Virus record (IMG/VR): IMGVR_UViG_3300032271_000279
Location: 1-23,061 of that record
Strand: one strand, 5' to 3'
Length of the DNA stretch: 23,061 bases
Origin: a virus
The notes under the pieces are model-generated. The model saw nothing but the letters and a program-made list of their open reading frames with translations. It was not told the origin of the DNA and did no database searches. Position 1 is the first letter of the stretch; every line of letters starts with the position of its first letter. This document shows positions 13,569 through 23,061 of this stretch, piece after piece. Made by a program: the position numbers and the translations under genes.

Positions 13569-13598
13569 AGTATAGTCTTAAACAAAACAATAAAGCAA
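13569..13598 (-). promoter_or_regulatory. Candidate sigma70-type promoter for unit B
   Basis: On the minus strand TTGCTT (13598-13593), an 18-base spacer, then TATACT (13574-13569). The -10 is one base off consensus and the -35 moderate. It sits ~40 bases upstream of the VRR-NUC start and downstream of the unit C terminator, where a promoter is needed. Confidence 0.5.
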
Positions 13599-13649
13599 TA
13601 GGTTTTTAAAATATTTTTTAATTATTTTTATAGGTGCAAACAACAGGAA

Positions 13650-13672
13650 CTTAGCGACATGATGTCGCCAAG
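13650..13672 (-). repeat. GCGACA-N3-TGTCGC hairpin, copy 1
   Basis: Inner arms 13654-13659 and 13663-13668 with TGA between (plus strand), extended by CTTA/CAAG (three pairs and one G-U as minus-strand RNA). It lies just past the unit C terminator and ~50 bases upstream of the unit B promoter. It is the only copy not between a stop codon and an adjacent SD. Confidence 0.8.
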
Positions 13673-13675
13673 TAG

Positions 13676-13704
13676 CCAATAAAAAAGCCCTCCGAAGAGG
13701 GCTT
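13676..13704 (-). terminator. Rho-independent terminator of unit C (UUCG tetraloop)
   Basis: Minus strand: AAGCCCTC-TTCG-GAGGGCTT followed by TTTTATT. An 8-bp stem with the extra-stable UUCG loop and a T tract is a textbook intrinsic terminator. It ends the transcript that runs through the MoxR/VWA/DUF3150 genes. Confidence 0.93.
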
Positions 13705-13834
13705 AGTGTGTAGGGTTAAGCAGATTCACATCCTACTTGTGTTATCGGAGATGCTCGGTTTCCCGACGCTATATGTCCACATCATGCTAGATAGGTATAC
13801 GGCATTACATTTGTATGTAACCAAGAAGGGTTAC
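13681..13834 (-). ncRNA. Structured 3' UTR, candidate anti-SD small RNA
   Basis: About 150 bases from the stop codon of the 322-aa gene to the terminator, with no ORF. As minus-strand RNA it starts with the perfect hairpin GUAACC-CUUCUU-GGUUAC (13834-13817), then has UCGG-GAAA-CCGA (GNRA loop), a GUAGG/CCUAC pairing and the UUCG terminator. The first hairpin contains CCUUCUUGGUUA, the exact complement of UAACCAAGAAGG in the leaders of the genes starting at 15714, 17540 and 18698, and 11 nt of that at 20359. The sequence GGUUACAU can also pair with AUGUAA-UG-CC just downstream, freeing the CU-rich strand. A regulatory RNA role is inference. No tRNA-like fold was found. Confidence 0.45.
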
Positions 13835-14799
13835 TCAAATATTATATCACCCGAAACTAAATAATAGTATTCGAGGTTACTGCCATTTTCACTATAAGAA
13901 TCAGGGTGTACCTTAACTCCAATATGTCCGACAGGCTCATCAATACTTAATAACTTAAGAGCAGATATTTTATCGGCTAGATGTTTGGGCATATCATCCA
14001 GTGATTTATATTTGTACAAAGTATTAGGGTCGCTCTTGTCGTAGTTGCATACAACAAAACTTTTATCTTGCTTAGCCTGTACTGCATAACCTATATTACC
14101 GTTACCACCAATATTGTTATAGTGGTCAGTAAGTTTCTTGGACTCATCATACCTTTCCATATACTTGTCGAAGTCCATATCATTGCGTCTACTGTTTGCA
14201 GTTGACAACACAGTCGGCAGTGTTACGGTAGTCTCACCACGTAGCCTTGCCTTGTATGCTAGATACGCATAGTTCATTGCCTCGGCATCAGAATCCATAC
14301 ACCACTTTGCTTGATTGTAATTATTGGATACAATATGACCGAGTCTAAAACTAACATGCTGACTAATCTGCGTTATCAGTTCTTGATTCGCTCTAGGTAT
14401 AAATGCTTTATTGGCTTCACGCAATGCTACCTTTAAGTGTTTACTAAACGTCCTGTTGTGCTGACCCCTTTCCTTAGAGATACGAAATGAATCTACAAAA
14501 TAAACAGGGATGTTTCCACCCTCGCTTCTACGGTATATATTTGCTATACCTATATTACCTAAGTGTTCACCGTTCTCATACACTTGGACAGAGGATAAAA
14601 ACTCAAATGTCTTTCTATCTTTCTTACCCTCCTCGTTTATGTAATCCCTCCACTCTTTTGATACGTTATCATCCTCTGCAACAAAATTGCACAAGGGCTT
14701 AAGCATTGCAACTGCATCAATGTAATCGCCTAGTTTAGGTTCAAGTTCTACAGACTTGTTAGCATTAGACATACCTATCTTATTAATTTGTGTCAACAT
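13831..14799 (-). CDS. Unknown phage protein in the MoxR/VWA operon, 322 aa
   Basis: Strong SD (AGGAGGTATAT) before the ATG. The sequence is mixed alpha/beta, with a beta-rich segment (SVQVYENGEHLGNIGIANIY), a helical and basic middle (HLKVALREANKAFIP, ISQHVSFRLGHIV), a polar Asn/Gly-rich part and a C-terminal segment with VGHIGVKVHPDSY. No membrane helix, signal peptide or recognisable catalytic motif is visible. It is the last gene of unit C and follows the DUF3150-like gene by 12 bases, so it probably belongs to the MoxR/VWA module. I do not recognise the family. Confidence 0.7.
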   Translation of the reverse strand: MLTQINKIGMSNANKSVELEPKLGDYIDAVAMLKPLCNFVAEDDNVSKEWRDYINEEGKKDRKTFEFLSSVQVYENGEHLGNIGIANIYRRSEGGNIPVYFVDSFRISKERGQHNRTFSKHLKVALREANKAFIPRANQELITQISQHVSFRLGHIVSNNYNQAKWCMDSDAEAMNYAYLAYKARLRGETTVTLPTVLSTANSRRNDMDFDKYMERYDESKKLTDHYNNIGGNGNIGYAVQAKQDKSFVVCNYDKSDPNTLYKYKSLDDMPKHLADKISALKLLSIDEPVGHIGVKVHPDSYSENGSNLEYYYLVSGDIIFE

Positions 14800-14811
14800 A
14801 TATACCTCCTA

Positions 14812-15714
14812 TCAAAAGTTAAATTTATTTAAAATACTATCTACCCTACGCTTTACTTCCTCACGAGCGAATACGTTATCTCTTAGTGAGTCGGCATCCT
14901 GATGCATGATTGCATTATGCAAATCAAGTCGTGCTTGCTCAAGCGTTGTGTCATTAGTAAGGTTAAAATGTTTCAGCATATCTACTAACTCTACAGCGTT
15001 CTCTACTAAGGTGTCTCTGAATACACGGGGTTTAAACTTCTTACCCGTACTCCCATCATCTTCTTCGCTATCAACTAAATCAACTTGTAGCCTATCGCTC
15101 ATACGCAGAAGGCACTCGTGCAATCTATTCCATGCATGACGCATTGCTAAGTTAAGACGTTCGTCGTAAGCGTTGTTGCACGACTGCATGATTTCATTCT
15201 TGGCTTCTTCACCTATGTCTATACGGAAGTCACCACTAGTAGGCACAGGCATAAAGTTTACGTTGAACTTGAACCTAGTCGCTATCTTATCTGCATCAGG
15301 GTACTCGTCACGATTAAACAAATCACCTAACTGAAAAGCCGCCGCACTCACTAGGTTAGGATATGCTATGAGGAACTTACCTACTAAAGCCATGTAGTTT
15401 TCTTCAAGCACAGTGAGTTGCTTCTTGTAGTTGACGAAGTTAGATACTGGAAGTAAGCGTAACCCATTATCAGACCACGGTAAAGTCTGAGAGATGTGCC
15501 AAGCCCTAGCGTTAGCCGCATACTTTATTATCGTATCAAGAAAGCCTGTACCCGCAAGTAAGTTTTTGTTGTAGTTACCTGCGTTGGTCTTAGTCCCTTT
15601 CGATACATCGACCTCGGCTGATACCTTCTTATCTAACTTGCGTGCAGTCCATGTGCTGATAGACATCTCGACTAACATCGCTGATGATGCAATACTGATA
15701 TTATTTTCTGACAT
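14812..15714 (-). CDS. DUF3150-like phage protein, 300 aa
   Basis: The N-terminus (SSAMLVEMSISTWTARKLDK) with the following Asn-rich NYNKNLLAG, then ARAWHISQTLPWSDNGLRLL and a GDFRIDI segment are the plan I associate with DUF3150 phage proteins: 'S-x-x-x-W-x-x-R-K-x-D', 'W-H-x-x-T-L-P-W-x-D-x-G-x-R-L-L-P', 'P-x-x-x-x-F-R'. The rest is helical. DUF3150 genes are often beside MoxR AAA+ and VWA genes in phages, as here, suggesting a substrate or adaptor of that chaperone-like pair; the function is unproven. Its leader carries hairpin copy 2 and the AACCAAGAAGGAG box. Confidence 0.65.
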   Translation of the reverse strand: MSENNISIASSAMLVEMSISTWTARKLDKKVSAEVDVSKGTKTNAGNYNKNLLAGTGFLDTIIKYAANARAWHISQTLPWSDNGLRLLPVSNFVNYKKQLTVLEENYMALVGKFLIAYPNLVSAAAFQLGDLFNRDEYPDADKIATRFKFNVNFMPVPTSGDFRIDIGEEAKNEIMQSCNNAYDERLNLAMRHAWNRLHECLLRMSDRLQVDLVDSEEDDGSTGKKFKPRVFRDTLVENAVELVDMLKHFNLTNDTTLEQARLDLHNAIMHQDADSLRDNVFAREEVKRRVDSILNKFNF

Positions 15715-15741
15715 ACATTACTCCTTCTTGGTTATGTTGGT

Positions 15742-15774
15742 GGATACTTGGCGACACGATGTCGCCAAGTATCC
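15742..15774 (-). repeat. GCGACA-N3-TGTCGC hairpin, copy 2 (15-bp perfect stem)
   Basis: The longest copy: 15-base arms GGATACTTGGCGACA (15742-15756) and TGTCGCCAAGTATCC (15760-15774) around CGA. It starts at the last base of the stop codon of the 80-aa gene and lies 27 bases upstream of the DUF3150-like leader start. Here the pair next to the core is G-C, where other copies have G-U or A-U. Confidence 0.88.
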
Positions 15775-16016
15775 TATTCTGCAAAATTTAAAAACTTTTC
15801 CATAGCCATTGCTTCGTCTTTGGTTAAGTCATTTCGTAATACTTCGACATTAATATGCTTTGGTAAGTTAAGTACTGGGCATGCTGAATACACAACATGC
15901 TCAACGACATCAAAACTATTATGAGAGTAGTAGTGTTTATGCAACTTTATAACCCCCCACTTACCACCCTCAACGGCACGTTTGTCGAACCACTTCTTAT
16001 ACTTACTACTCAACAT
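15774..16016 (-). CDS. Unknown small protein, 80 aa
   Basis: ATG at 16016, overlapping the 3' end of the VWA gene by 11 bases; the TTG at 16022 is less likely. Basic N-terminus (LSSKYKKWFDKRAVEGGKWG), a His-rich middle (LHKHYYSHNSFDVVEHVVY) and an acidic helical end (RNDLTKDEAMAMEKFLNFAE). The His cluster could bind metal, but no known motif is evident. It is coupled to the VWA gene, suggesting a partner of the MoxR/VWA module. Function unknown. Confidence 0.6.
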   Translation of the reverse strand: MLSSKYKKWFDKRAVEGGKWGVIKLHKHYYSHNSFDVVEHVVYSACPVLNLPKHINVEVLRNDLTKDEAMAMEKFLNFAE

Positions 16017-17268
16017 ATACAACTTTGCCCACTACATCTAAATCAAAATTTGAATTACCTTTGATGCACCATAGCACAGGAGTAGGTGATATTAAATCCC
16101 AGTGCTTAGGGTTCTGCTGACCTATATATCCGTCGGTGAATACTACTAAGCACTCAGGAGATATAGATTCTTTGTTCAAGTATCTAGGCACACACTCAGG
16201 GTTAGTACCACCACCACCTACTGCTTGAGTATGATTGATTGCATCTGCTACTTCGTTGCCTACATATACCTCATGCTTCTCTACTGATGAATCCCAATAC
16301 AATAGATGCACACACTCAGGACTAACTTCATCACAGATAGATTTAAACTCTGATAAGAAGTTAGGTAAGTCGTGATAGCATGACCCTGATACGTCAACAC
16401 CGACAGCAATAGAACCAATCTTCTCAGAGTATGACGACGGCATTATAATATCCATACCGATGTAACGCTTATGCAATCGCTTCCATGTTGTTTGGTCTTT
16501 GCCTTGAGTAGATGTCTTGATAAACTCACGCAACGCTTCCTTCCAATCAATCTTAGGTGTGAGCAATTCGTCTATCTCTCTGGATACATTGCCGTTCATC
16601 TTACCTGCTAACATAGAACCTTGACGCAATGCATCTTCGATTTCCTTGGCATTAGCCTGCACCTCTTTCTCTGACATAGCATCAGCACCTTCCCAGTCAT
16701 GCTCATCTAAAGACTGGAATTCACCATCACCGTCGGCTTCGCCTTGACCATCGTCATCACCTTCGCCCTTACCTCTACCTTTACCACCTCTGCCTTTGCC
16801 ATAGTCTTCGCCTAACTTCTTCTCTAGTATCAGGAAGACTTGGTGTGCATCCATACCACGATAGGCTTCATCGAGGCAACCCATAGGTTCACCGTTCTCA
16901 TCAAGAGGAAACTCTATAACCTTTCCTTCAGGGTCGTAGTCATGCAACTGTATATTAATAACAAAGTCACATGCCATGTTAGCGAGTGTTGGGTTCTTTT
17001 TGTACAAAGATTTCCATACAATCATATGACGATAAGCCTTGTGCATATTCTCATGTAAGACAAGAAAGCCTAGAGCCTTGTCGCTAAGTTTATCCACGAA
17101 CTCACGCCCATAGATAACGTCTAAGCCGTTGGTTTTAGCAGTCGGCACATCATCTTGCACGCTTACCCCACCAATCATAAATAACCCTGAGAACAAACAG
17201 AAGTTCGGATGTTTCATTAGTTGTACGTGGCATCTCTCGATGCGTTGTTCGGCAGTTAGTTTAGCCAT
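16006..17268 (-). CDS. HExxH metallopeptidase-like plus VWA protein (DUF2201-like), 420 aa
   Basis: N-terminal metallopeptidase-like domain with LVLHENMHKAYRH (HENMH, residues 72-76, an HExxH zinc motif) followed by NMACDFVINIQL (~97-108), where such families have N-x-A-x-D-x-x-I-N. A flexible linker rich in Gly, Lys and Asp spans ~155-185. The C-terminal VWA domain has the MIDAS set: DVSGS (292-296), GGGGT (351-355) and FTDGY (Asp379). This domain order is that of DUF2201-type proteins, partners of MoxR ATPases: the AAA+ ring is thought to remodel targets presented by the VWA protein. An intact HExxH suggests proteolysis, but family members are not all shown to be active. Confidence 0.82.
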   Translation of the reverse strand: MAKLTAEQRIERCHVQLMKHPNFCLFSGLFMIGGVSVQDDVPTAKTNGLDVIYGREFVDKLSDKALGFLVLHENMHKAYRHMIVWKSLYKKNPTLANMACDFVINIQLHDYDPEGKVIEFPLDENGEPMGCLDEAYRGMDAHQVFLILEKKLGEDYGKGRGGKGRGKGEGDDDGQGEADGDGEFQSLDEHDWEGADAMSEKEVQANAKEIEDALRQGSMLAGKMNGNVSREIDELLTPKIDWKEALREFIKTSTQGKDQTTWKRLHKRYIGMDIIMPSSYSEKIGSIAVGVDVSGSCYHDLPNFLSEFKSICDEVSPECVHLLYWDSSVEKHEVYVGNEVADAINHTQAVGGGGTNPECVPRYLNKESISPECLVVFTDGYIGQQNPKHWDLISPTPVLWCIKGNSNFDLDVVGKVVYVE

Positions 17269-17540
17269 TGTGTTACTCCTTTCTCGTTAAATGCTTCTTC
17301 AATTTCTTTAGTGTCGTCGGCTTCGGTTTTTAACTTTTCTGCATAAGCCAAAGTCATAGCCGAAAACTTACCAATCAATTCAAAAGGGTCCATCTCTGCT
17401 TGGTCTAACGCAGTATCTATTAGCAGAGCAGTAAGTGCAGTCATAACTACACCTAAACTATAATCACCCTCACCACATACTTCACCGATACTATCTCGCA
17501 ACGCTTCGGTATCGCCAATCATTTTTTCTTTATCTAACAT
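17256..17540 (-). CDS. Small acidic helical protein between MoxR and VWA genes, 94 aa
   Basis: Good SD and the shared AACCAAGAAGGAG leader. An acidic first third (KEKMIGDTEALRDSIGEVCG), then a helical hydrophobic segment (LGVVMTALTALLIDTALDQ), and an acidic/polar C-terminus. No clear membrane span: the hydrophobic stretch is amphipathic and Asp-interrupted. The last 13 bases overlap the VWA start. Position between MoxR and VWA genes suggests an adaptor for that pair. I do not recognise a family. Confidence 0.65.
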   Translation of the reverse strand: MLDKEKMIGDTEALRDSIGEVCGEGDYSLGVVMTALTALLIDTALDQAEMDPFELIGKFSAMTLAYAEKLKTEADDTKEIEEAFNEKGVTQWLN

Positions 17541-17563
17541 AGTTACTCCTTCTTGGTTAAGTT

Positions 17564-17588
17564 ACTTAGCGACATCGTGTCGCCAAGT
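17564..17588 (-). repeat. GCGACA-N3-TGTCGC hairpin, copy 3
   Basis: ACTTAGCGACA-TCG-TGTCGCCAAGT; one G-U pair next to the core when read as minus-strand RNA, otherwise fully paired. It lies 15 bases after the MoxR stop and is followed by AACCAAGAAGGAG and the ATG of the 94-aa gene. Confidence 0.85.
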
Positions 17589-17603
17589 TCTACTGCTTTA
17601 CTA

Positions 17604-18698
17604 CTAAAATAAGTATTGGTTCTCACGCATCCAATCCACGAACGGTTGGCTTGTAAGAAACAACTTCTTCTTATCATCGCTCTTCATACCTGTGAGGCAG
17701 AACACAGACTGCAACTCCTTCGGTGTTCTCTTGAGGTATGTGAAAAACTTACCGATGGTATCTCGCTCGACTCTTTGTACTGCACTAAAAGCAAGCATAC
17801 ATAACGCAACGGGTGAGTCAGGTACTTGTGCAACTTGTGGATTCTTAATGATGTCCTCCCAACTTGGAAGCGAGTCGGCTACGGATACAAAGGTCATTAA
17901 GTCACGAGCTGCTGCTGCCCCAATCGTACCTTCTAACGCACAAACGATTACGTTCTCCGTTACCCTATCTCGTCTGCTAATAATGTTTGATGCTCTAGCA
18001 AGAGAACGTGGTGAAACAAAAGACTTCTGTGCTTCTTTAGGGTTGAAGATATACTTGTTCTGCTCTTGCGATGCGTCAAGATATGATGCCAACAACTCAG
18101 GATGTTGCTTAACCCATGCTAATATCTCAGGTGCAATATCATTAGCGATAGCCCACGCACCCCATGAATTACTATCAATAGAGCCGTCAACATTAAACCC
18201 AGCGTGTGGTTTCTTAATATTGATTATGCTTATACGGTTTCTGGAGTGAGCCATCATCGTATCGCCTACACCGTCGCCCGTATAATTACCTGCAGTTATG
18301 ACTATGTCGTTGGGGTGTAGTGGCATACCCATAATCATGCGTGGGTCGTTAAGCATTGGGTGCATCATGTTCTTAACTGCTTGGTGAGCCTTAGTAAACT
18401 CGTCAATAAAGATTACCTTTGGTTGATTAATATGAAAGCCCCATTGCTCGTTAGGATAGATGCGAGTAGTTTTAGTTTCATGGTCAGGAATTGGAATACC
18501 TAACTCACCTAACTCTACGTTTGGTGCGTCAATGTAAATGCCCTTATAGCCAGTTCTTGTAACTAAATTCTTGAACATAGATGTTTTACCGACCCCCGGT
18601 TCACCCATTAAATGAAACGTGGTATCAGAGCCTACTGCGAGGATTAAGTCTTCTGCTTCTTTGAGAGTTGCAGTTTTGTTTAGGAATACATTTGCCAT
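17604..18698 (-). CDS. MoxR-family AAA+ ATPase, 364 aa
   Basis: Walker A GEPGVGKTS (32-40), Walker B VIFIDEFTKA (Asp99, Glu100), sensor 1 IVITAGN (132-138) and HSRNR (151-155, arginine finger region) give a complete AAA+ core. The D-A-P-N-V-E-L-G-E-L-G insertion after Walker A and the GDGVGD loop are MoxR-like. MoxR ATPases act as hexameric chaperones that insert cofactors or remodel proteins with VWA partners, and the VWA/HExxH gene lies two genes downstream. CobS-like cobaltochelatase ATPases are relatives, but the partner here is DUF2201-like rather than CobT-like. Its leader carries hairpin copy 4 and AACCAAGAAGGAG. Confidence 0.88.
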   Translation of the reverse strand: MANVFLNKTATLKEAEDLILAVGSDTTFHLMGEPGVGKTSMFKNLVTRTGYKGIYIDAPNVELGELGIPIPDHETKTTRIYPNEQWGFHINQPKVIFIDEFTKAHQAVKNMMHPMLNDPRMIMGMPLHPNDIVITAGNYTGDGVGDTMMAHSRNRISIINIKKPHAGFNVDGSIDSNSWGAWAIANDIAPEILAWVKQHPELLASYLDASQEQNKYIFNPKEAQKSFVSPRSLARASNIISRRDRVTENVIVCALEGTIGAAAARDLMTFVSVADSLPSWEDIIKNPQVAQVPDSPVALCMLAFSAVQRVERDTIGKFFTYLKRTPKELQSVFCLTGMKSDDKKKLFLTSQPFVDWMRENQYLF

Positions 18699-18724
18699 AT
18701 TTAATTCTCCTTCTTGGTTAAGTT

Positions 18725-18749
18725 ACTTTGCGACATGATGTCGCCAAGT
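18725..18749 (-). repeat. GCGACA-N3-TGTCGC hairpin, copy 4
   Basis: Core 18730-18735 and 18739-18744 with TGA between; the next pair is a mismatch (T/C on plus, G/A on RNA), then ACTT/AAGT pair. It sits 6 bases after the stop of the 327-aa gene and upstream of the MoxR leader box. Confidence 0.8.
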
Positions 18750-18755
18750 AGATGG

Positions 18756-19739
18756 TTATACAACATTAAAATACTTCTTGTTCTTGTCGTTAAAGATAGA
18801 GCCGACAGGTTGCTCAGTTTGTACATATAGACTATCGCTGTACTCATACTTCAATACTTCTTCGAATGTCCCTACAAAATCTTCAGGGTGACAATTTACC
18901 TCGTTTTGATTAGACCAAATCCATCTACCTGAATATATAGCAACATACATCATCAGTTCATATAGAAGTTCTAGGTCTTGATGCTTCTCATAGTATGCTA
19001 AGCCACCAAGTAATCCCAACCTACCTAGTTTGGTTCCATCATTATCACGATGCGAATATTTATACGGCAATAACTTAGGGTATTCAAAGTTAAGACCTTT
19101 CTTCACGAATGCATCAGGCACATTCTTAATTGCAACAGGTTCTTTAATCCTTTGTATTATAGGATTCATAGACAAGCAAGTCTTACCGTAGTCAATAAAG
19201 AACGAATACCTTTTGCGTAATGCGTTCATCATCTTACGGTTTAGTGAATACTTCTTCTCAGGCTTAATATCTTTAGGTATGAAAGCATCACCATCTTTAG
19301 TCAGCCTCATGCTACCAACAAAGGGATAGCCCTCGCCCCTACTGTTAATAAAATACCACTTACCTTTACAAGATTCTATTCTGCCTATGTCGTTTGCTAG
19401 AGTATAGGTTACGAATCCGAACAGCGTCGGCCCCTTCCAAAAGTTAAAGTACAAACCAACGTCACCATTATTAAAGAACTCTATAATCTTAGCCTCGTTG
19501 ATGTTGCATGAATACGTATACTCGTACCTACCCAATGGCTCATCGGGATGTTCCACAGATATGAGGTTCTTCTTTATCCTGTACCAAGAATAACTACGCT
19601 TCTCACCAATAGGTCTAACGTCTTCTAACCTACCACGAATAGGCACGACATTATCAAACCTTTTCTTCGCATCTTCGTAATTAGCAATCGGCTTTATCCT
19701 TGCCGAGTTGTATGCATTTGTACCGTATGTGGTTGCCAT
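18756..19739 (-). CDS. Unknown phage protein with PIRGRLEDVRPIG motif, 327 aa
   Basis: The ATG overlaps the upstream TAA (TAATG) and follows GGGAGGAAG. The N-terminal region contains VVPIRGRLEDVRPIGEKRSY and then SWYRI, a pattern I have seen in phage proteins of unknown function (R-G-R-x-x-D-V-R-P-L/I-G-x-R). The middle is beta-rich with many aromatic residues (NNGDVGLYFNFWKGPTLF), and the C-terminal third is helical. No catalytic motif is recognised. It is encoded just before MoxR and may be its substrate or regulator; this is context only. Confidence 0.65.
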   Translation of the reverse strand: MATTYGTNAYNSARIKPIANYEDAKKRFDNVVPIRGRLEDVRPIGEKRSYSWYRIKKNLISVEHPDEPLGRYEYTYSCNINEAKIIEFFNNGDVGLYFNFWKGPTLFGFVTYTLANDIGRIESCKGKWYFINSRGEGYPFVGSMRLTKDGDAFIPKDIKPEKKYSLNRKMMNALRKRYSFFIDYGKTCLSMNPIIQRIKEPVAIKNVPDAFVKKGLNFEYPKLLPYKYSHRDNDGTKLGRLGLLGGLAYYEKHQDLELLYELMMYVAIYSGRWIWSNQNEVNCHPEDFVGTFEEVLKYEYSDSLYVQTEQPVGSIFNDKNKKYFNVV

Positions 19740-20359
19740 TACTTCCTCCCTTCTAAATAAGATATGATTACTTGCAAGCGAGCAATCTCACGCTTGAGTT
19801 CTGAGTTGTTGTCAACGACGTTGTCGTAATCGAATTGCAATGCTTTGTGTGCGTCGTCTAACTTGACGTACTCCTCGACTATTCTGTCGTCGTCGTTGAT
19901 GCGTTGCTTTGGTGCGTCGTCGTATGTTCGGTCTGCATAAACACGCTTGCGTATTTCAACAACACCACTCATGTCATGCTTTCGCATAGCGTCGGCTAAA
20001 TCGTGCGTTCCGTAAGCAGGGTTTTTAACTTCTGACTTGCCCTCGCCTGTATACTTCTTCTGACCGATAAGCCCTGCATTGTTGAGCAGTTTTTGTAAGT
20101 TGCTTGTTGATACTTGCGATGGTTGTACTGTTGGCTTCTTAACGCTAGGCTTTTTCTTACTCTTGCCAAACCGTTTATCACGTTTAGTTTCCATGCCATA
20201 CTTCTCACGCAATGCTTTAGTAAGCCCAACTATGTAGGCTCTGCGATTGTCATCGGTGTTCAGATGTGCGAGTTTAGTTAGCATTGCATCAGGGTGATGC
20301 GTGCCGTTGATGAACTCTTCTTTAACTGCTTTGGAAATACCTTTATTAATAACTGCCAT
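19739..20359 (-). CDS. Unknown basic protein with C-terminal coiled coil, 206 aa
   Basis: Shared leader box before the ATG. A helical N-terminus (residues 1-55), then a Lys-rich linker (KRDKRFGKSKKKPSVKKP, ~59-76), a Ser/Gln/Asn segment, a basic and acidic middle and a C-terminal coiled-coil (~165-206, DDAHKALQFDYDN then NSELKREIARLQVII). The arrangement suits a DNA- or RNA-binding, oligomeric protein; that is inference. No family recognised. Confidence 0.65.
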   Translation of the reverse strand: MAVINKGISKAVKEEFINGTHHPDAMLTKLAHLNTDDNRRAYIVGLTKALREKYGMETKRDKRFGKSKKKPSVKKPTVQPSQVSTSNLQKLLNNAGLIGQKKYTGEGKSEVKNPAYGTHDLADAMRKHDMSGVVEIRKRVYADRTYDDAPKQRINDDDRIVEEYVKLDDAHKALQFDYDNVVDNNSELKREIARLQVIISYLEGRK

Positions 20360-20382
20360 TTTGATTCTCCTTCTTGGTTGAT

Positions 20383-20407
20383 ACTTAGCGACACTATGTC
20401 GCCAAGT
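20383..20407 (-). repeat. GCGACA-N3-TGTCGC hairpin, copy 5
   Basis: ACTTAGCGACA-CTA-TGTCGCCAAGT, one G-U pair beside the core. It lies 6 bases after the stop of the 77-aa membrane protein gene and upstream of the leader box of the 206-aa gene. Confidence 0.85.
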
Positions 20408-20413
20408 GGTTGG

Positions 20414-20647
20414 TTAAGATAATGCAACTGCTTTGAAAACAAAAAACACTACAAGACACACCGTTATGATTAACGGAACTGCAAAACACAAAAGTTCTGT
20501 GAAGAACACTCTCATGTCCGACATCTCAGGGTCGGATTCAAACCATGACGCATACTTCGCATCTTTGAACGCATCATGTGATGACCTGTGCGTTTTGTTG
20601 TTATGCACAAAATCACCTATGCTTTTACTATCGTTGTCTTGACTCAT
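20414..20647 (-). CDS. Tail-anchored small membrane protein, 77 aa
   Basis: A polar N-terminal half (SQDNDSKSIGDFVHNNKTHR onward) and a C-terminal hydrophobic helix at about residues 53-75 (LLCFAVPLIITVCLVVFFVF), ending ALS. The soluble part should face the cytoplasm with the helix in the inner membrane. The SD is GGGGGTTTG and the gene follows the excisionase-like gene by one base. Unknown function; superinfection exclusion is a possible role for such proteins, without direct support. Confidence 0.65.
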   Translation of the reverse strand: MSQDNDSKSIGDFVHNNKTHRSSHDAFKDAKYASWFESDPEMSDMRVFFTELLCFAVPLIITVCLVVFFVFKAVALS

Positions 20648-20648
20648 A

Positions 20649-20879
20649 TCAAACCCCCATCTCTTTCTTGCGTTTAATTAAATATGCTTTAACACTACTT
20701 GCTAAGATGCGACGATGCCCACCACCTGTACGCCATGACGTAAACACGCCATCGTCAACCATCTTTTGTATCGTACCAAGTGATAGCAGGGTAATTTCTG
20801 CAACTTGATTCGTAGTTAAATACTTCTCAATGTAAGCGTGGTCTATCACTTCCCACTCCTCCCAATATTTATTAGTCAT
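20649..20879 (-). CDS. Excisionase/MerR-like helix-turn-helix protein, 76 aa
   Basis: The sequence LTTNQVAEITLLSLGTIQKM followed by VDDGVFTSWRTGGGHRRIL is the classic HTH_17 layout: recognition helix, D-x-G-x-x-x-x-W-R-T-x-G-G-H-R-R wing, then a helix with SSVKAYL. These are DNA-binding domains of excisionases and small phage regulators. No integrase is visible here, so a transcription regulator is as likely as an excisionase. It is the best local candidate to bind one of the palindromes in unit C. The ATG overlaps the upstream stop (ATGA). Confidence 0.8.
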   Translation of the reverse strand: MTNKYWEEWEVIDHAYIEKYLTTNQVAEITLLSLGTIQKMVDDGVFTSWRTGGGHRRILASSVKAYLIKRKKEMGV

Positions 20880-21145
20880 TTTGCTATCTCCCCTGTTTTG
20901 TCAAAGTGTTTCCATGCATGACAAGCAATACAACCCCCATCATAGTGGTCGCAACGTTCACCCCAATACTCAAGCATTTCTTCTTCTGCATCGGTAGATT
21001 CAGTCTCATGGGTAACAATCCACATACCAATTCCACCCCTATCATCTTGGATAGTAATCGTTGTTGTAACCACTGTTGTATCAGTAAGTAGTTCAATAAC
21101 TCTTTTTTGTATATCTTCATCATGCACATATTCTCTTTTCTTCAT
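20876..21145 (-). CDS. Small acidic Cys/His-containing protein, 89 aa
   Basis: Strong SD (AAGGAGGTTGAT) before the ATG. The middle is Thr-rich (ELLTDTTVVTTTITIQDD). The C-terminus has C-x7-C-x2-C with flanking His residues (ERCDHYDGGCIACHAWKHF), a plausible metal site. No family recognised. It is encoded just before the excisionase-like gene, with overlapping stop and start. Confidence 0.6.
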   Translation of the reverse strand: MKKREYVHDEDIQKRVIELLTDTTVVTTTITIQDDRGGIGMWIVTHETESTDAEEEMLEYWGERCDHYDGGCIACHAWKHFDKTGEIAK

Positions 21146-21146
21146 A

Positions 21147-21518
21147 TCAACCTCCTTGTTTAACGGTTCTGTCTAACCACGTATACTTCTTGTATCTAGG
21201 GAAAGGCCCGAAATCAGTCTCTTCAAATTCGAAGTCGGCCTCGTCTACTTCTATTACAGGTGGGTAATCAAAAGCATTTCTTATACGCTGTGCTTCTTCT
21301 TTACTCATAGCAGTTGCCACGCTGAATGAAAAACTAGCGTATTCTTCGTCACCAATAATAAATTCGTGAGCAGTTTCATACGGCTCTTCATCAGGAAAGC
21401 GTGAGTCAATATGACGTATAATTCTGTAGTGCCACGAAAAACTACACTCAGCATTATCATCTTCTACTTCTTCAACAGGTCTTGAACCTGCGTATCCATC
21501 TTCGCATATCTGCATCAT
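21147..21518 (-). CDS. Acidic protein of unknown function, 123 aa
   Basis: SD GGAGG five bases before the ATG. Rich in Asp, Glu and aromatic residues (RPVEEVEDDNAECSFSWHYR; DEADFEFEETDFGPFPRYKK). Such strongly acidic small phage proteins are sometimes DNA mimics, but the pattern is not specific. The start is immediately after the stop of the upstream gene, and the stop is one base before the next ATG. Confidence 0.6.
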   Translation of the reverse strand: MMQICEDGYAGSRPVEEVEDDNAECSFSWHYRIIRHIDSRFPDEEPYETAHEFIIGDEEYASFSFSVATAMSKEEAQRIRNAFDYPPVIEVDEADFEFEETDFGPFPRYKKYTWLDRTVKQGG

Positions 21519-21866
21519 TTAATCCTCCAATCTATCGCATTGTTTAATTGCATCGGCTAAGTTACTAGCAACATCTAGTAATACAAAGTTCTTTTGGTCT
21601 AGACGCACACCGTTCTTCGTTGCTTCGTTAAGTTGGCGAACTGCTAAACTCACATGGTTCTTGAGTACGGTATAAGGATTAGAGTTCGACGGACTAACTG
21701 CTGAACTACCACCTACACCCAAGTAGTCTTCCTCGTTGGGTGCAAGTAGCATCTCCATCTCTTCTTGGTAGCGTAGATTCCAATTACTACGGAACTCACG
21801 CAGTTGTTTATTACTCTTGCGTTTCTCAATGTTCTCAGCAACATGGGCTTTTATTTCAATTCTCAT
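21519..21866 (-). CDS. Helical protein of unknown function, 115 aa
   Basis: Basic N-terminal helix (ENIEKRKSNKQLREFRSNWN) followed by EEMEMLLAPNEEDYLG, a Gly/Ser/Asn-rich linker and a C-terminal pair of helices (VLKNHVSLAVRQLNEATKNG, NLADAIKQCDRLED). Its leader holds hairpin copy 6 and a shortened version of the shared box (AACCAAAGGAG). Not recognised. Confidence 0.6.
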   Translation of the reverse strand: MRIEIKAHVAENIEKRKSNKQLREFRSNWNLRYQEEMEMLLAPNEEDYLGVGGSSAVSPSNSNPYTVLKNHVSLAVRQLNEATKNGVRLDQKNFVLLDVASNLADAIKQCDRLED

Positions 21867-21884
21867 TTACATCTCCTTTGGTTA

Positions 21885-21908
21885 TTTAGCGACATCATGT
21901 CGCTAAGT
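21885..21908 (-). repeat. GCGACA-N3-TGTCGC hairpin, copy 6 (covarying pair)
   Basis: TTAGCGACA-TCA-TGTCGCTAA at 21886-21906. The pair next to the core is A-U here, G-C in copy 2 and G-U in copies 1, 3 and 5: a compensated position. It lies 6 bases after the stop of the 62-aa gene. Confidence 0.85.
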
Positions 21909-21914
21909 GGTTGG

Positions 21915-22103
21915 TTAATCATCAATACTTTCTTGCAACGGATTAGTTGGGTCATACGGCAGGGACTCTTTCGTATACTGCAATACACTAAAGTTACCCA
22001 TAAACTGCTGACGTTGATGCAGGTTCGCAGTTGCGTATAAGGTTTGGAACTCATACATTTTCTTTTCCCACTCGGCTTGTGGGATTGTCTGTGGGACTGC
22101 CAT
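21915..22103 (-). CDS. Unknown small protein, 62 aa
   Basis: SD GGAGGTGTAAT before the ATG, one base after the upstream stop. Helical, with AEWEKKMYEFQTLYATANLH then QFMGNFSVLQYTKE and a Pro-containing acidic tail. No motif recognised. Encoded second in unit C. Confidence 0.6.
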   Translation of the reverse strand: MAVPQTIPQAEWEKKMYEFQTLYATANLHQRQQFMGNFSVLQYTKESLPYDPTNPLQESIDD

Positions 22104-22104
22104 A

Positions 22105-22329
22105 TTACACCTCCGTTCTTTTTGGGTTTAACTGCTTGAGCAATTCAGGGTCGCTGATGTAAGTCGGAGTAGACTTGTTGCTTGGTATAACCATGCTCTC
22201 TTTCCACTTGGACTCGATTCGTGCGATTTTGTCGCCACAGGCCATGCAAGCACGAAAGCCTAATGCGTTGCGAGCAGGGTCTACTTCCCCCTCGCACTCT
22301 TGGGTAATAACTGCATAACATAGATACAT
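22105..22329 (-). CDS. Small Cys-rich (zinc-finger-like) phage protein, 74 aa
   Basis: ATG at 22329 is chosen because AGGAGG lies at ideal distance; the GTG at 22335 is too close. Cysteines at 4, 12, 28 and 31 (QECEGEVDPARNALGFRACM, then ACGDKIARIESK) suggest a zinc finger. The end (VIPSNKSTPTYISDPELLKQ) fits a class of short phage proteins with 'L-G-x-R-x-C-x-x-C-G-x-x-x-A-R' followed by 'P-x-x-K-S-x-x-x-x-I'. First gene of unit C, about 110 bases downstream of the predicted start site. Role unknown; possibly DNA or RNA binding. Confidence 0.65.
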   Translation of the reverse strand: MYLCYAVITQECEGEVDPARNALGFRACMACGDKIARIESKWKESMVIPSNKSTPTYISDPELLKQLNPKRTEV

Positions 22330-22347
22330 ATACACCTCCTATAAAGA

Positions 22348-22371
22348 TTTAGCGACATGATGTCGCAAAGT
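22348..22371 (-). repeat. GCGACA-N3-TGTCGC hairpin, copy 7
   Basis: Core 22352-22357 and 22361-22366 around TGA; the next pair is A/A, then TT/AA. It lies in the 5' UTR of unit C, about 20 bases upstream of the first start codon and with no gene directly upstream, unlike copies 2-6. Confidence 0.8.
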
Positions 22372-22434: not shown

Positions 22435-22451
22435 CTACAACATAGTTGTAG
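22435..22451 (-). promoter_or_regulatory. Palindromic operator at the unit C start site
   Basis: CTACAAC-ATA-GTTGTAG, a 17-bp perfect inverted repeat overlapping the edge of the -10 box and the predicted +1. A dimeric repressor bound here would block polymerase. The candidates in the window are the HTH proteins at 20649-20879, 10082-10273 and 3661-3912. Confidence 0.6.
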
Positions 22452-22478
22452 TATAACACATAAACTGTACAATGTCAA
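22450..22478 (-). promoter_or_regulatory. Strong sigma70-type promoter for unit C
   Basis: Minus strand: TTGACA (22478-22473), 17 bases, TATACT (22455-22450). The -35 is perfect, the -10 five of six, the spacing optimal. It drives leftward transcription through the small genes and the MoxR/VWA/DUF3150 module to the terminator at 13676. Confidence 0.85.
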
Positions 22479-22903: not shown

Positions 22904-23061
22904 ATGAAAAGTGTGATACACTACGTGTATCACATCAAAACAGGCTATTGCGTTGCGTCAAGCGATGGCGTTGCCGTTGGCTTAAGCGTTGACTACTACG
23001 TTGCTATGGGGAAGAACTGGTTTTATAGAACTGGTTGGAACTGGTTCGAAAAACCCGACAG
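22904..23061 (+). CDS. Start of a rightward ORF, partial, at least 52 aa
   Basis: ATG at 22904 opens a frame with no stop to the window edge. The codons read KSVIHYVYHIKTGYCVASSD then an aromatic segment with KNWFYRTGWNWFEKPD. The SD is weak (CAGG). A 23-bp palindrome sits within the first codons and GAACTGGTT repeats near the end, so the DNA could be regulatory rather than coding. If real, this is the first gene of the rightward side of the genome. Function unknown. Confidence 0.4.
   Translation, partial: MKSVIHYVYHIKTGYCVASSDGVAVGLSVDYYVAMGKNWFYRTGWNWFEKPD
22912..22934. repeat. Perfect 10-bp inverted repeat with 3-bp spacer
   Basis: TGTGATACAC-TAC-GTGTATCACA. It lies just inside the predicted rightward ORF, typical of an operator overlapping an early start, or of a translational hairpin. 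The sequence differs from both the GCGACA family and the CTACAAC operator. Confidence 0.7.
23014..23046. repeat. Three direct repeats of GAACTGGTT
   Basis: Copies at 23014-23022, 23028-23036 and 23038-23046. The spacings (14 and 10 bp) are not multiples of three, so the repeat is not a protein-level repeat. It may be an iteron or binding-site cluster continuing past the window edge. Confidence 0.5.

Follow-up and report, generated by a model that had tools for sequence, protein, structure and literature searches.

A palindrome array in the early operon of uncultivated phages as a candidate set of distributed DNA operators

The virus record IMGVR_UViG_3300032271_000279 (23,061 bases; hereafter the window) carries seven copies of the palindrome GCGACANNNTGTCGC, all intergenic, in and around an early operon on the minus strand. 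The palindromes are probably distributed DNA operators for a sequence-specific phage protein, most likely the one that the first gene of the operon encodes. The copies are kept at syntenic positions in relatives. Between lineages the core of the palindrome is replaced at all sites of a genome together, and the core co-segregates with the first gene of the operon. All sequences analysed are metagenomic contigs.

Every copy in the window is exact, which confirms the seven copies reported in the initial annotation; the coordinates given there are the left ends of longer arms. The 3-base spacers listed there and the location of one copy past the operon terminator are also correct. No additional copies are present in the window even at two mismatches; shuffled sequences have a mean of 0.47, and 0 of 100 reach seven. 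The consensus on the minus strand, which is the coding strand, is ACTTnGCGACA-N3-TGTCGCnAAnT, and AACCAAGAAGGAG often follows it. A census of the gaps in the unit agrees with the claim of one copy for each gap over 40 bp. There are five such gaps (59, 63, 57, 54, and 48 bp) with one copy each, and the remaining gaps are 12 bp or shorter. The other two copies are in the operon leader (copy 7) and just past the operon terminator (copy 1).

A pattern scan of viral contigs revealed 14 stretches with the palindrome, several of which have 3-5 copies. In close relatives, the copies are in the same gaps as in the window, including the post-terminator copy. Copy 7 has a syntenic counterpart in G001, G007, G008, G009, and G010. 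G008 is 98% identical to the window over the largest aligned block. In the near-complete G001 (60 kb), all copies lie between 43.4 and 53.2 kb, and none is found elsewhere. A broader scan for the core followed by a Shine-Dalgarno sequence (SD) and ATG found 85 stretches, while the reversed-pattern control found 12, each with a single copy. Three more groups with the same core (G004/G005, G006, and G014) belong, as distant members, to this phage lineage, based on their portal and terminase and, for G005, also on replication proteins. The portal protein places the lineage near Pelagibacter HTVC023P, Roseobacter CRP-901, and Caulobacter RW. No multi-copy GCGACA array was found in the cultured relatives identified through portal or DUF927 (HTVC023P and HTVC027P of Pelagibacter, CRP-901/902 of Roseobacter, RW of Caulobacter, DSL-LC04, and others). 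A literature search on the motif returned nothing relevant. Separately, five viral contigs (L027, L062, L078, L085, and L086) contain several TGCGACA-N3-TGTCGCA elements together with isolated TGTCGC half sites and CAAGC-rich stretches. Some of these elements are set directly upstream of TTGAC, and they may form a further array of this type.

The DUF3150-like protein served as bait to collect 80 loci, and a second bait added many loci of lineage II; in total, 428 relatives are on record. Many of the 80 loci have no GCGACA at all; instead, 3-10 copies of another palindrome are present in the corresponding gaps. Each genome has a single core. The alternative cores include GTGTCA, CTTAG, GTTAC, CAGACA, and GTGGTC. 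Lineage II loci have about five copies each, with the cores GTGGTC, GTGGAG, GCGGACA, GCAGACA, ACAGACA, AGTATCA, and others. In the gap upstream of the DUF3150 gene, an inverted repeat is present in nearly every close relative, while its sequence changes. The initial annotation had named a lack of conservation at syntenic gaps in relatives as an argument against the hairpin family; the palindrome is kept at these gaps, and by this conservation it is judged to be functional.

The layout is constant in 117 further unique elements, which consist of a 5-bp inner box, a 3-bp AT-rich bridge, and a 5-bp outer box, with a total length of ~29-31 bp. The outer box is often GGACA, and the inner box is lineage-specific. 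The replacement of the core is seen in a single gap of two loci, gaatGTGGTC-AATT-GACCACaatgccgcc in L175 and gaatGTGGAG-AATT-CTCCACaatgccgcc in L190. The substitutions in the arms are symmetric, and the spacer and the flanks are unchanged.

If the reader of the core is encoded by the phage, its gene should change with the core, and the neighboring genes should not. This was examined by comparing pairs of loci with the same core and with different cores. The core of each locus was labeled manually from its repeats, and the lineage I residual is what is left once DUF3150 similarity has been regressed out. In lineage I (17 loci), which includes the window, the first-gene family, named W, separates the two kinds of pairs with an area under the curve (AUC) of 0.978 and a residual of 0.367 (permutation p = 0.0002). 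The residuals for AAA, VWA, DUF3150, nuclease, DNA polymerase, and the products of the genes at 13831 and 22105 are only -0.006 to 0.031 (p > 0.1). The first gene of lineage II (27 loci) behaves similarly, with an AUC of 0.954 and a residual of 0.261 (permutation p = 0.0002), while the residuals for AAA and VWA are -0.014 and -0.009.

The same relation is observed among nearly identical phages. Phages whose AAA, VWA, and DUF3150 proteins are nearly identical have a different core at every site and a different first gene. For example, L214, L220, and L221 have AAA and VWA proteins at 0.98-0.99 and 0.97-0.99 of self score, but three different cores. Their first-gene similarities are 0.16, 0.16, and 0.57, and the highest value belongs to the pair with the nearest cores (GTGGTC and GTGGAG). 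Because the sites are interleaved with unchanged genes, block transfer cannot explain the switch of the core.

The W family proteins are 190-240 aa in length, and the first-gene family of lineage II is 120-140 aa. The window ends short of its own W gene; the counterpart in G008 is at 15925-16650 on the minus strand. In both G001 and G008, a palindrome is located directly upstream of the W start. In the W alignment, the N-terminal part is variable. The family also has the motif W-x-RF...G-x-KP and a helical, charged tail predicted to be coiled-coil-like. The lineage II proteins also have a variable N-terminal part, followed by a conserved C-terminal D-x-V...L-(S/T)-x-x-E-(K/Q)-R-RF. Neither family was detected in cultured phage records with tblastn. 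The first-gene protein is thus a putative DNA-binding protein only by its link to the core.

Other candidates for the binder were rejected. The HTH_17 gene at 20649-20879 has no tblastn match in G001, which has the same core. A ribbon-helix-helix (RHH) gene beside DUF3150 is missing in many palindrome lineages, including that of the window. The 13831 protein does not track the core, and the 18756 protein tracks it weakly. A host factor is unlikely, since near-identical phages differ in the core. About half of lineage I has the RHH gene immediately upstream of DUF3150, where it runs into the palindrome.

The best surviving alternative, which we consider unlikely, is that the palindromes are mRNA hairpins. 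They would be targets of a phage RNA-binding protein, in the manner of N-boxB or a translational operator, or of RNase III or another processing enzyme, and would set translation, stability, or antitermination between genes. All intra-operon copies are transcribed and lie 3-35 nt upstream of an SD, and the predicted RNA folds of the copies reach -8 to -17 kcal/mol. The loop length differs by 1 within genomes. Co-evolution with a protein alone cannot separate RNA from DNA, as the same protein could co-evolve with hairpins. The initial annotation took the changes in the flanking pair as covariation in support of an RNA stem. In 33 distinct copies from eight contigs, the pair is GT (14), AT (6), GC (5), or TT (4), besides GA, AA, AC, and TC, and these counts fit an independent choice of the left and the right base. 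As the flanking pair fits a free combination of bases, the covariation argument falls. RNA pairing is expected to favor G.U over A.C mismatches. The two types are equally common in the 117 elements (30 and 31, respectively). Position 7, in the bridge, is actively non-complementary, with A.A or T.T in 67 of the 117 elements and a Watson-Crick pair in just 30. In L125, L133, and L138, elements with AA/AA and with TT/TT bridges coexist, indicating that the asymmetric element is present in both orientations in one genome.

Copies are also kept outside the predicted transcript, where RNA is not expected. The post-terminator position of copy 1 is occupied in most lineages, and copies are found upstream of the -35 element (L134) or of the extended -10 element (L175 and L190). 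The compensatory and wobble changes on the sense strand that characterize a conserved RNA hairpin are not seen, and no Rfam family matches the window at the gathering score. On balance, the dyad appears to act as DNA. Among the three options offered in the initial annotation, the DNA operator repeated along the unit is favored, while the evidence for an RNA stem fails; the suggestion that an invariant core implies a specific binder holds up. The described placement between a stop codon and the next SD is real, but it does not argue for a role in translation, because any noncoding element of 25-30 bp in a packed operon must sit there. In lineage II, GTTTTTT comes directly after the palindrome that follows the first gene, and a second GC-rich, terminator-like hairpin comes next (L175:2452, L190:1915, and L176:2871). 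The palindrome at this location may double as a terminator.

Several observations weigh against the DNA operator read by the first-gene protein. Comparisons with Pfam, PHROG, and PDB sequences gave no convincing match for W or the lineage II protein, and the two families are only weakly similar to each other (hhalign probability 31%). The RHH protein also tracks the core (p = 0.0076, nine loci of lineage I), and so does the 18756 protein (residual 0.08, p = 0.0014, lineage I). The binder could therefore be another protein where these occur. L155 shares the GTGTCA core with loci to which its W similarity is only 0.28-0.36, and the RHH protein fits that group better. DUF3150 of lineage II has a tiny but significant residual (0.023, p = 0.0004). 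The permutation p-values are optimistic, since the loci share ancestry. The spacer differs by 1 bp inside some genomes (3 and 4 in L155; 4 and 5 in L143), which suits a hairpin loop better than a rigid dimer. Finally, in group A by itself, G.U-type mismatches outnumber A.C-type mismatches (19 vs. 6).

The anatomy of the operon fits an autoregulated distributed operator: one site adjoins the promoter, others are spread along the operon, and one marks the boundary with the next unit. By analogy with stoperators (PMC6550527, PMC9283540), the first-gene protein would be a repressor, and the sites would work as roadblocks to elongation. The binder would occupy each dyad as a dimer or a dimer of dimers. 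Bound to the promoter-proximal copy, it would reduce initiation at its own operon, and on the intergenic and post-terminator copies it would hinder the elongating host RNA polymerase, leading to a graded shut-off of early genes. As recognition drifts, the binder and all sites of a genome would change together.

It is rather improbable that the sites nucleate a nucleoprotein complex that segregates, packages, or protects the genome, similar to ParB/parS or KfrA. The many identical palindromes over ~10 kb and an autoregulated first gene with a predicted coiled-coil-like tail are compatible with such a complex, and one W member shows a marginal Pfam match to ParB (E 0.07). Yet the sites are limited to one operon and its borders, with none in the rest of the 60-kb G001, and a site adjoins the operon promoter in several lineages. 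No ParA-type partner ATPase was seen.

It is very unlikely that the palindromes are selfish repeats, similar to repetitive extragenic palindromes (REP) or miniature inverted-repeat transposable elements (MITE) or spread by gene conversion, which are homogenized within a genome without any service to the phage. Selfish repeats would also be the same within and different between genomes, intergenic, and in both orientations. The palindromes are, however, kept at orthologous gaps across large protein divergence, and the core changes in place with unchanged flanks. The core is tightly linked to one gene 1-10 kb off and not to the genes between. Among the scanned proteins of the window (the relatives were not covered), no transposase was recognized, such as the cognate Y1 type of REP/RAYT elements. 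N4-type hairpin promoters for a virion RNA polymerase can practically be dismissed: the 3-nt loop and 6-bp stem resemble them and the relatives of the AAA gene are mostly from hosts typical of N4-like phages, but the giant gene of G001 encodes a DarB-like/LPD39 protein that has no match in the PDB, no polymerase was seen, the core and the spacer length vary freely between lineages, and sigma70-like promoters are present.

The early operon encodes a 76-aa Cys protein, an HTH_17 protein, the 18756 protein, an AAA ATPase, a DUF2201/VWA protein, a DUF3150-like protein, and the 13831 protein (Table 1). The AAA ATPase and DUF2201/VWA (16006-18698) and the DUF3150-like protein (14812-15714) constitute a conserved trio. 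Distant relatives of the AAA ATPase occur in many cultured phages, while DUF3150 has just three matches there. The products of 13831-14799 and 18756-19739 (~320 aa) are hypervariable, being 44-48% identical to those of G001, compared with 78-84% for their neighbors. Confident AlphaFold models were obtained for both, yet no PDB fold matched. Upstream of the operon promoter, at 22912-22934 of the window, there is a second perfect palindrome, TGTGATACAC-GTA-GTGTATCACA. It is present in a single copy and is possibly another operator.

Table 1. Palindrome copies and associated features in the window, with examples of the RHH gene in relatives.
Feature	Coordinates	Core start	Strand	Sequence and position
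Copy 7	22347..22371	22352	-	ACTTTGCGACA-TCA-TGTCGCTAAAT; early-operon leader, upstream of the SD of gene 22105-22329
Copy 6	21884..21908	21889	-	ACTTAGCGACA-TGA-TGTCGCTAAAT; 48-bp gap upstream of gene 21519-21866
Copy 5	20383..20407	20388	-	ACTTGGCGACA-TAG-TGTCGCTAAGT; 54-bp gap upstream of gene 19739-20359
Copy 4	18725..18749	18730	-	ACTTGGCGACA-TCA-TGTCGCAAAGT; 57-bp gap upstream of AAA ATPase gene 17604-18698
Copy 3	17564..17588	17569	-	ACTTGGCGACA-CGA-TGTCGCTAAGT; 63-bp gap upstream of gene 17256-17540
Copy 2	15746..15770	15751	-	ACTTGGCGACA-TCG-TGTCGCCAAGT; 59-bp gap upstream of DUF3150-like gene 14812-15714
Copy 1	13649..13673	13654	-	ACTTGGCGACA-TCA-TGTCGCTAAGT; just past the operon terminator, ~100 bp upstream of the putative promoter of the next unit
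Early operon with copies 2-7	13831..22329		-	
Sigma70-like promoter	22450..22478		-	TTGACA-17-TATACT; lies upstream of copy 7; identified solely by its match to the consensus (11 of 12 bases)
Intrinsic terminator	13685..13704		-	AAGCCCTCTTCGGAGGGCTTTTTTA; end of the unit
Putative -10 of the next unit (Hjc-like nuclease, DNA polymerase)	13569..13574		-	TATACT; inferred from sequence
RHH gene examples	L136:9724-10002, L144:8710-8916, L155:9776-9961, others		+	

Sixteen contigs of up to 68 kb, which are possibly incomplete, gave no match to the tyrosine integrase family (PF00589); other recombinases were not searched. A role in lysogeny is thus not supported, though such a role may exist. Tentatively, these phages may represent a large clade of apparently lytic uncultivated phages with a palindromic operator network and a new family of first-gene autoregulators, whose specificity switches like that of immunity groups but without lysogeny; we hold this as a possibility rather than as the expected outcome. 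Selection in a lytic phage would come from cross-regulation between co-infecting relatives and not from prophage immunity. A switch of specificity without lysogeny would be new, provided that the phages are lytic.

With the palindromes, an unexplained repeat becomes a regulator-operator pair that can be tested, in a clade of uncultivated phages that is widespread and has no annotated regulation. The near-identical genomes with swapped specificity are natural recombinants, in which it can be asked how the sites of a network and their binder change together. This joint change is an open question for stoperator-type immunity. The ranking of genes by co-segregation with the repeat sequence is reusable for other orphan phage repeats.

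Several known systems resemble the array in part. The boxB/N antitermination hairpins of lambdoid phages act at the RNA level, with one or two per operon. They share with the array a short phage-specific hairpin sequence matched to a phage-specific protein, but the array has 5-10 copies per operon, copies outside the transcript, and no wobble signature. The RNase III sites of the T7 early mRNA are likewise hairpins that lie between early genes, have an internal loop, and closely precede the next start. Their sequence is not lineage-specific, and they have no co-evolving protein. The dyads described here are shorter and are present outside the transcript too.

The start-associated sequences (SAS) and extended SAS (ESAS) of Cluster K mycobacteriophages include imperfect inverted repeats directly upstream of the starts of many non-structural genes (PMC3203893). 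ESAS have 17-bp arms and a 4-13 bp spacer and are tied to the 13-bp, SD-containing SAS; their cognate protein is not known (PMC3203893). In both systems inverted repeats are conserved, per gene family in Cluster K, where the consensus is specific to the subcluster. In the array, by contrast, the SD is outside the element, and a co-evolving gene is identified. No 13-bp GGGATAGGAGCCC element of the SAS type was found at the SDs examined in the window and close relatives.

The closest resemblance is to the stoperators of Cluster A mycobacteriophages (L5, Bxb1, and TipsytheTRex), which are 13-bp asymmetric sites of temperate phages, oriented with transcription, bound by a monomer, and distributed genome-wide (PMC6550527, PMC9283540). 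Both have many copies of one motif per genome at promoter and short intergenic positions, the motif varies with a phage-encoded protein, and the repressor or first gene has its own site. Unlike stoperators, the palindromes are 25-30 bp dyads in either orientation and are restricted to a single early operon. Neither W nor the lineage II protein matches a repressor in Pfam or PHROG, and neither is recognizable as a two-domain immunity repressor. The best reading is that the array would work like mycobacteriophage stoperators, but with palindromic sites and a putative autoregulator of no known family.

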